DNA of 64,000 nt, taken from assembly GCA_036674765.1 (NCBI GenBank), contig JARVKI010000038.1, forward strand, positions 124,001-188,000, in the 5' to 3' direction. The stretch comes from Seiridium cupressi (taxonomy: Eukaryota > Ascomycota > Sordariomycetes > Amphisphaeriales > Sporocadaceae). How positions within the stretch are numbered: position 1 is the stretch's first letter; every line of letters begins with the position of its first letter. Shown one piece after another: positions 47,933 to 51,687 of this stretch. The notes below the pieces were generated by a model. It searched no databases and was not told the origin of the DNA. It worked only from the letters and a program-made list of their open reading frames with translations. The position numbers and the translations under genes were made by a program.

Positions 47933-48187
47933 CTAGTACCAAAACAAAAACACGGCAATTCCGCGCCTACGCTCATACCCTTCGTTGGCCTTTGTCTGAT
48001 CAAGCTTCATAGCATTAGGCCGTACGCCACCTCGACCTCTTCCGCCGCCTCTTTTCCAGCGCGCATGACCACGTCCGCGGCCAGGACTACGATTCCCACC
48101 CTGGTGGGCATGACGGCTCTCCTTGTTGGATGAGATGGCCAGTTTATTTCCCTCCTCATCAGGCTCGTAGGTCTCCTCACGTCCGTC
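47933..48187 (-). other. In-frame RG-rich extension after the Trl1 stop codon
   Basis: Directly downstream of the TAG at 48188-48190 the same frame stays open for 84 codons to a second TAG at 47933-47935. The translation is strongly protein-like: acidic start (REETYEPDEEGNK), then GGNRSPGRGRGHARWK and RGGGRGRGGVRP, an RNA-binding-type RG/RGG run. It could be a readthrough extension, the remains of a longer ancestral protein after a nonsense change, or a base-call error. Confidence 0.55.
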
Positions 48188-50675
48188 CTAGCGCGCAAGG
48201 ACACCACGGACTGTTCCCTTTAGGACGGGTTTTGGCTCAAAACCACGCTCGCCGACGCCATTCCCTGTGCCCTCTTGTAGCCATCTAGCTATCAAGTCAT
48301 TGCTTTCTTTCGGTTTGACGCTCTGGTCACGGGTGCCGACCGTGATATGTGCTACCGGGTTGACGCTTGCCCATTGAGAATCGGGAATCCTAGCCACGAT
48401 TGTCATGACTCGATCATCGAAAATAACCTGGTAAGTGTAAGTCAACTAAGCCGACATAAAATTTTAATTTTAATTTATTTTTTTGCCTTGGGAATAGGGA
48501 GGGAACGTGATCGAAAACAGAACTTACTCTTTCAAGCTCGACATCACACTCGGCAATGCGGCCATCGTTGGGAGCACTTTCTTCCTCAAGTTTGAGAAAC
48601 TCAGCCCACCGTTCCGGGTGATCCTTGGAAACAGCACGATGCATCAACGTAACATGAAACTGAGGTTGGATGCGTCGAGTCTGCTGCAGCTGCTTGTAAA
48701 ATTTGGACGTTTGTGTGTCAACATCCTTGAAAGCCGTTTCTAGGATACTGTTCACATCCTTGGCAGGCATCGAAACCGCCATGTACTCCAGTGGCTTTTT
48801 CTTCTGAACCTTCGGCTGTTGCTGTCTCTGCCCACCATTCTGCTTATTTTTGCCTCCTCGATCGGGAATTGTATGTCGAAGATCAGGTTTGTAATTCTCG
48901 ATAGCACCCTTGATTGCCTCATCCAAGTCCTCTTTGCTTGGAGCCTCGGGAACTAGACGTGGATATTTGCGATGTAGCTCATTGATCATAGTCTCGAGAT
49001 TTTCGCGACTATCCTTGGAGGCATCAAGGTCAACGACCAAGTCGAAGCCAGCATCAGGCAGGTTGTCTGGATCGCATGGCTGGAAGCGGTGGATGAAGTT
49101 CTCCATAATACCAATTACCTTGGACTCATCGGACGCTGCCTGGATTGTCTGATGGTTGTCGCCTCGTGCAAGAACACGCTCGCGGGTGACGCGGCGTACC
49201 TGCTCCATGTCGCCATGTGAGAAGTTCATTGCGACAAGACGAGCCTGTGCATGTTGCAGCTTTATGTCCTTGATGATCTGCTCTCTCTCACGTCGCTCAG
49301 AGTTGTTACGATCAGAGATCACGACCGGATTGCCGTCGGAGAGCAGCTGCGTGACCTGCTTCACCATCTGAGCTGGGCGGCCCTTGCCTGTTATGTTGTC
49401 GTTCTGCACGTGTCCCCAGCCAAACAAATTGGTCAAGCCTACTGCAACTGTAGTCTTTCCACAACCAATTGTTGCGATGGGTACGATGACGACACCATCA
49501 GTAACCAAAGCCCCGTCTTCGTTGCCGTCATTCTCGATATTGGCTGCATCGGATCCCTTCATATTTTTGTAGGCGAGGAAATCATCTCGGAGCTTGATGA
49601 TGCCGTGATTCTGGTTGTATAGCTTTCCGAGCTGTGGGTCTTGGGCGAGACGCTTTCTGGCGTAGAGGAGGTATTCCTCGGTGATCTTGGCGTGCTTCTT
49701 GTACTTCGGCGGCCGGCCGGCAATAAGCGCCTTCGTGCACTCGCGCCACTGACGGTACATCAGGTATGGTTCATCAAACTTGTACTTCCAGAACCAGTCG
49801 TTGTAGGGCTTTTGCTTAGGATCATGGGACATTCGGCATCGAATGACGAAACCCTCGACATCCCGTCCCTCATGAGCTCCCGTCTCTGCGACACCTTCCA
49901 AGAAGGTTTGCACTGTATCCATGTCGTCAAAAACCTGCAATCCCACTTTTCGGAAGCCCCAGTCATCGGCGAACTTTTGAACGAGGTCGCTAGGATAGGT
50001 CATGAACTCCGGCACGTTGATATTGATACCGTGGAGGTAGAGACCTGCCTTCTCTGGTCCATAGGCTAGAATATGCTCCTCAAAGCCATCATCGCACAGC
50101 TCTGCGACAGCCGTGATATTCCTGCTTCTCAGTTCTCGTGCAAGGTCTGAGCGCGTCTTGCCAAGAGCCTGGAGCTGTTTGTCAACCCACTTCTCACCAG
50201 CCATGGAATGGCTCAATTCGACATCACTTCGAGCTCCAGTAGAGTGCTTGCTGCAGACCAGCAAGGTCTCGTCCTCCAGGCCACCAATGAAGATGATGCA
50301 GCCGTTCTCCTTGAGAGTGAGCTCATACGGACCCTGTGTTCTAGCACGAATGCTTGGCCACTTGGTGTCTGTTGTCTCGTTGACGTTGAAGAATTTGTCA
50401 TATCCTCGAATGGCAATCTCATGTTGACCACGGCTGTTCTTGGTGGTGAACAGACCGCGAGCATATGTGGGCAGATCGGGCTTTTTGTAGTCCCAGTCCT
50501 GAAATCGCCAGGAGTCTACCGTGATGCCATTCGGCGAGCCTTGGACACTGAAAGTGGTCTTCTTGGCTCTGAAGCCGTGCTTGCCCTTGCTAGTGGAACC
50601 ATTGAGCCCAGCCACGAGATTCTGGATCTCCTGGGGATCTTGATCGGCGTAGGGAACCGTGGTCCCGGACGCCAT
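48188..50675 (-). CDS. TRL1: Fungal tRNA ligase Trl1 (ligase-kinase-phosphodiesterase)
   Basis: Exons 48528-50675 and 48188-48427 (100 nt intron) give 795 residues. It seals tRNA exons after intron removal and, in fungi, HAC1-type mRNA. The N-terminal ligase domain has the adenylated lysine K122 in LKENG, the VEGFVIRC motif and WFWKYKF. The central kinase has a P-loop ATIGCGKTT (401-409). The C-terminal cyclic phosphodiesterase shows the two HxT motifs HVTLMH and HITVGT, the second in exon 2. The reading frame continues after the TAG for 84 codons of RG-rich sequence. The gene is divergent from mitochondrial uL10 across 1 kb. Start at MASGTTVP; the open upstream frame is probably leader. Confidence 0.96.
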
Positions 50676-51687
50676 GGTATGTTGGTGTGCAGAGTTGGGA
50701 TAGAGGTGAGTGGGGATGTTCTGGTGCACTTTTGTGAAGTGGGATTGATAGCGTTCCGTGCTGATGGAATGACTGCACCGAAGGTGTCGTAATACACTGC
50801 CGCGGTGAAGAAGGAGGTCTGAAAAGGGAGGGGCAGTGGCAGTCGTTGCCTGTTTGGTAATCTGCCGATGAAAACTGCCTAGTACTTGTCGACGGCAAGA
50901 ACGCATGCAGTACTCGATAATTGAGGTACTTGCTGCGTCTGGTGAGAATGCAGGTACTGTACCCCGCTGAACTGCAAAGTGAATGACAAAGGGTCGACAA
51001 ATATGAGGCTGAAGCTTCTCCTTCTTGGGTACAGTTGGCTGGAAGATTTATACAAACCTGCCGTGGGGTCTGCAGCCTCAGGCTGGACAATGTTCTGGAA
51101 CGTACAATGTAGATTGCAATGGATTAGTCCAGCTAAGCTAGGAATCGCACGGCATGAGTCACATGCAGGCTCGGCGGTTGAATCAGAATGATGGACTTCC
51201 GGCGAAGGCTTAGTAGGTCAGAAGTGGCTTGCCCTGCTGTAGTTTGGTATGGCAGATGCTGGCAAGTCTCGCAGCGTGCCTCGCAAATACGACAAAACGG
51301 GCAAAAACCAATATTAGTACTGGTCGACTGGCTTGCAGCTCTGCAAAAGACCCCGCCGTCTTTACTGGTGATTGTAGCCCTATGACAACTGACGTTGATG
51401 CCCTGCACCAGATTGGTGGGGTCGCGCCAGGCGCCTAGCTTCTATGTATAGCCGCCCACTGCCGCCACAACGCTGCCGCATAAGTACAAAATGCAAGTAG
51501 CACAACCGCCTATTTGTGGCGCAGTCATTTATGCACAATGCAACGCATCTCCTGCTGCACGGGCCGTCTCCAAAAATTCCAGAAGCTCTGGCTGAAGCTT
51601 TCGCGATCTTTCGAGACCTGGCCCCCGACGACGTTCGAACCGGTCCAACGATCTGACACCTCGAATCCCCGCCGGCAGACGCCCAAG
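50676..51687. promoter_or_regulatory. Divergent promoter, TRL1 and mitochondrial uL10
   Basis: 1 kb between two divergent genes. The uL10 frame is open upstream to 51514, with another in-frame ATG at 51538, so part may be coding. No distinct motif identified. Confidence 0.45.

Follow-up and report, generated by a model that had tools for sequence, protein, structure and literature searches.

Does the fungal tRNA ligase gene TRL1 always end at its stop codon, or is a longer protein sometimes made from it? The question is raised by the 3' end of TRL1 in the window, that is, the whole stretch of 64,000 nucleotides of Seiridium cupressi that was analysed, where the gene and all features of the locus given below lie on the minus strand. 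The stop codon TAG (48188-48190) is followed by 84 sense codons in the same frame (47936..48187), and the next in-frame stop, again TAG, is read from the sequence at 47933..47935. The peptide encoded in between is acidic first and RG-rich after, with a poorly coding-like end. An earlier note had drawn attention to this arrangement and had proposed three readings: stop readthrough giving a longer ligase, a nonsense mutation of recent origin, or an erroneous base. Its description was exact with respect to the position of the stop, the 84 open codons, the composition of the peptide and the bases GAC, in place of a UGA-CUA signal, after the TAG.

The gene itself is readily interpreted. Exon 1 (48528..50675), read from the conserved start ATG at 50673-50675, encodes the ligase and kinase domains and the greater part of the CPD domain, and exon 2 (48188..48427), the last exon, encodes the end of the CPD domain and carries the stop codon. 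The only intron (48428..48527; 100 nt, GTAAGT..CAG) lies between them; its splice sites were taken from the sequence and the spliced translation, of 795 residues, matches P0001, a protein of Seiridium cupressi, with 100% identity over the part before the stop (90% of the query). The Pfam domains are found in the expected order, namely ligase (PF09511), kinase (PF08303) and CPD (PF08302), all far above the cut-off. Since the full CPD profile is matched, up to residue 793 of 795, Trl1 is complete before the stop.

The end of the protein can also be judged from its relatives. A listing of 120 homologues, from 2319 found, gave 119 for comparison once P0001 was left out, all of them predicted proteins. 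The C-terminus falls at the same residue as in Trl1 in 110 of these; three Fusarium-type proteins (P0110, P0112 and P0113) are one residue longer, having F, F and W in the stop column, one homologue is three residues longer, and P0006, P0008, P0014, P0035 and P0048 end early or leave the alignment, four of them at the intron. The tail was absent from all 119 listed homologues, predicted proteins that end at a stop by definition. By this comparison TAG 48188-48190 is the normal, conserved and ancestral end of Trl1. The idea that a formerly longer ligase was recently truncated by a nonsense mutation, or that a base error has created the stop, could appeal to the partly coding-like tail. Against it stand the 110 shared C-termini, the three proteins ending one residue later and the tail being found in no homologue protein, and both variants were rejected on these C-termini as very improbable. 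The comparison with relatives proposed in the earlier note thus retrieved no RG tail among annotated proteins, which are uninformative on the DNA behind the stop because they end at the stop codon.

Two explanations of nearly equal probability then have to be weighed. The first is an ordinary stop followed by an untranslated, stop-poor and G-rich 3' region, which would read as RG-rich by chance and in which a hairpin predicted around the stop would be a GC-rich by-product; its chances seem to us a little short of even, and the conserved end in 110 of 119 listed homologues and the complete CPD domain speak for it. The second, which we tentatively regard as the best explanation at a likelihood that also stays below one half, is stop-loss A-to-I editing of the TRL1 UAG, yielding a minority isoform with the tail.

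The length of the open frame bears on both. The earlier note considered an open, coding-like 3' untranslated region to be rare, and this holds for the RG content discussed below but not for the openness, which is only mildly unusual: the stretch stays open in 1.9% of 20000 mononucleotide shuffles and in 111 of 5000 dinucleotide shuffles. Moreover, a second sense frame of the same stretch is open for 59 codons, so that the stretch is simply poor in stops. In 264 kb of the genome, at least 84 open codons follow the stop in two of 47 long ORFs, both resembling coding continuations, and they are found downstream of 23 of the 309 TAGs that have at least 80 open codons upstream. Because shuffled sequences, the second frame and other ORFs and TAGs of the genome behave likewise, the length of the frame is within chance, as would be expected of an ordinary stop.

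The coding character of the frame is divided along its length. Among random chunks, some of them coding, 6.3% match the codon score of the tail, which among coding chunks stands at the 39th percentile; this position in the coding range counts against an ordinary stop. The synonymous part of the score alone is weaker and is reached by 14.9% of random chunks. In its last 18 codons the score falls to about zero, which is not coding-like, and the frame ends in the hydrophobic GIAVFLFWY; both features speak against a functional tail. A GTATGA..TAG stretch at the end of the frame could be an intron. The frame also encloses an AATAAA hexamer (48143..48148; L001 1708-1713), a possible poly(A) signal 40 nt past the stop, which favours an ordinary stop; if it were used, the mRNA would stop short of the RG part. 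Two such hexamers occur in 3252 bases, no more than chance would give (38 of 200 shuffles).

The RG content counts against an ordinary stop. RG and GR dipeptides number 11 in the tail frame and none in the other two sense frames, a count matched by none of 5000 dinucleotide shuffles and by one of 1273 other open 84-residue chunks in the 264 kb. This in-frame content is striking and far above that of the shuffles, and its rarity is overstated because the measure was picked after the tail sequence had been seen. RGG-box tails bind RNA, and the Trl1 tail is like them in its clustered RG/RGG and acidic neighbour; it differs from them in having no Pfam match and is known here as a predicted frame only. 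Searches of predicted proteins in which shared 5-residue words were required gave no homologue with the tail at E 10 or better, either among 118 or among 688 candidates. Exon 2 with the tail had no match among solved structures, and in the genome (45.4 Mb, 228 contigs) a second copy was absent, the tail matching only itself. Five loci on viral contigs and six on genome contigs were set aside as distant RNA-ligase-like matches (23-34% identity), and not fungal TRL1.

How could an ancestral stop be passed? According to a 2024 review (PMC11156358), A-to-I editing of mRNA occurs in the sexual stage of Sordariomycetes through Tad2-Tad3 with Ame1, favours U at position -1 and hairpin loops, and frequently turns UAG into UGG at stops. 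The accessible part of PMC4817773 gives 323 genes with such stop-loss editing in F. graminearum, and that of PMC11087585 describes editing as a common feature of Sordariomycetes; in the latter paper, the Tad2-Tad3-Ame1 complex is also reported to be active on mRNA in yeast and E. coli. The UAG of TRL1 fits this signature because it has U at -1, five of six preferred neighbours and an A unpaired in a stable predicted hairpin loop. The candidate site, A 48189, is surrounded by C(-2), U(-1), G(+1), G(+2), A(+3) and C(+4); when set against the preferences at -2 to +4 in the portion of PMC9600606 at hand, the first five are preferred bases and the C at +4 is depleted. The U at -1 and the G at +1 come with any UAG, and at least five preferred neighbours are found at 1062 of the 5476 TAGs in the 264 kb.

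By RNA folding, the UAG is predicted to lie in the apical loop of a hairpin (48166..48208). A 48189 was placed in the loop in seven of seven window sizes with a predicted unpaired probability of 0.999 or more, and the UAG with 30 nt on each side folds at an MFE of -23.5 with the A in the loop. A loop position is common, being predicted for 1681 of the 5476 TAGs; only 23 of them, counting the TRL1 stop, combine it with an MFE no higher than that of TRL1, and six of these 23, TRL1 again among them, also have at least five preferred bases. Among GC-matched TAGs the TRL1 stop is equalled in structure by six of 469 (1.3%). Moreover, of 667 windows spanning exon 2 and the tail, none has a lower energy than the one centred on the UAG, which ties for the minimum, and the place of the UAG at the tip of the most stable hairpin of this region speaks against an ordinary stop. 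In favour of the latter, 121 of 3000 random synonymous recodings (4.0%) equalled the original in both loop and MFE, and 234 of 3000 did so in MFE alone, so that the hairpin is in good part a consequence of the encoded peptide and of base composition. Longer stretches fold unremarkably (z of -2.04 at 51 nt, -1.22 at 91 and -0.61 at 141). From these predictions the TRL1 stop appears to be a good editing candidate by context, and the support for selection on the RNA structure itself is weak.

The host is consistent with editing, its class being Sordariomycete by homology. DUF726, the domain of Ame1 in the available text of PMC11087585, has matches at three places in the genome, which are Ame1 candidates at the family level only, and nine deaminase-family matches were found, at most Tad2/Tad3 candidates at the same level. 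The presumed nucleophile motif is GFGAG in one DUF726 locus (C14; L015, L017) and GYSLG in the other two. Inspection of the MV500-501 residues by eye did not single out any of the loci as Ame1. The second DUF726 match on C18 (67475-68041, L014) is interrupted by a single TAG, which might be an intron or a recoded stop. TRL1 was not found as an editing target in the literature search, whose reach did not extend to supplementary gene lists that may include it, and no study of editing in Xylariales was found among the matches listed. In the available part of PMC5381528, a comparison with F. graminearum gives nine genes among the S. macrospora orthologues as edited in protoperithecia of S. macrospora, so that non-conservation alone would not exclude editing.

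Editing of the TRL1 stop could proceed as follows. In sexual tissue, Tad2-Tad3 with the cofactor Ame1 would deaminate A 48189 in part of the TRL1 mRNAs, decoding of the edited UAG as UGG would insert Trp, and translation would go on to add 84 further residues. The product would be a minority Trl1 isoform with an acidic, RG-rich tail, the RG part of which would, one step further, be disordered, bind RNA and alter the encounter of the ligase with its substrate. The in-frame RG content, the host class and the presence of DUF726 genes were counted for editing; counted against it were the depleted base at +4, the AATAAA, the last 18 codons, the failure to find the tail protein in the searches described above and the frame length. 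TRL1 resembles known stop-loss editing in Sordariomycetes in its UAG stop, U at -1, preferred neighbours, loop A, host class and in-frame extension, and it differs in that it is known here from sequence and a predicted fold alone. A close parallel is white collar 1 of Sordaria macrospora, where, in the part of PMC6794485 available, a conserved protein of the same fungal class is extended past its normal UAG; there the extension, of 131 residues, is proven by peptides, and gene and tail are different from those of TRL1.

A longer ligase, as the earlier note suggested, keeps a real share of the probability, ribosomal readthrough being the less likely route to it given the context UAG-GAC. Readthrough of the unedited UAG would give the same extension from the same open RG-rich frame, and longer fungal enzymes made in this way are reported (PMC4207609). 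The metabolic enzymes described there are like TRL1 in carrying a C-terminal extension past the normal stop; their mechanism is translational and depends on a short UGA context, whereas TRL1 has UAG-GAC and so lacks a known leaky context such as UGA-CUA. We consider readthrough improbable. Alternative splicing could also remove the TAG, if a GTCCGT donor immediately ahead of it were joined to an acceptor CACCAG at about 48100; the frame would be kept, the phases being compatible when judged by eye. The donor consensus is GTAAGT, and GTCCGT is a poor donor; in addition, the conserved VRGVLAR end would be lost and such a form was seen in none of the 119 listed homologues, so that we find this explanation highly implausible.

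Going back to editing, a bolder version of it would be that, in the fruiting body, the deaminase of tRNA anticodons is co-opted as an mRNA editor and changes the stop of TRL1, so that a stage-specific, RGG-tailed Trl1 is made. We regard this as rather unlikely; if it were true, one tRNA-processing enzyme would recode another, possibly changing the ligation of tRNA or HAC1-type mRNA in sexual development. Hundreds of stop-loss editing events have been reported in Fusarium and Neurospora, in no case with a reported function according to PMC11156358, and TRL1 would be a good place to seek such a function, as a conserved single-function enzyme would gain a recognisable RNA-binding tail. If TRL1 is not edited, it would show that an open 3' frame rich in RG can readily mislead.

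At the other end of the gene, TRL1 has an upstream in-frame extension of 77 codons (50676-50906, minus strand) reaching to an ATG at 50904-50906. R, H, S and T abound in it, whose only acidic residues are a single D and a single E, and it resembles a mitochondrial presequence. Comparable N-terminal extensions are present in at least 12 relatives annotated at 859-903 residues, by a pattern that fitted only 36 of the 120 proteins. Such extensions in relatives, as judged from their sequences, suggest that Trl1 may be dually targeted by means of alternative starts.
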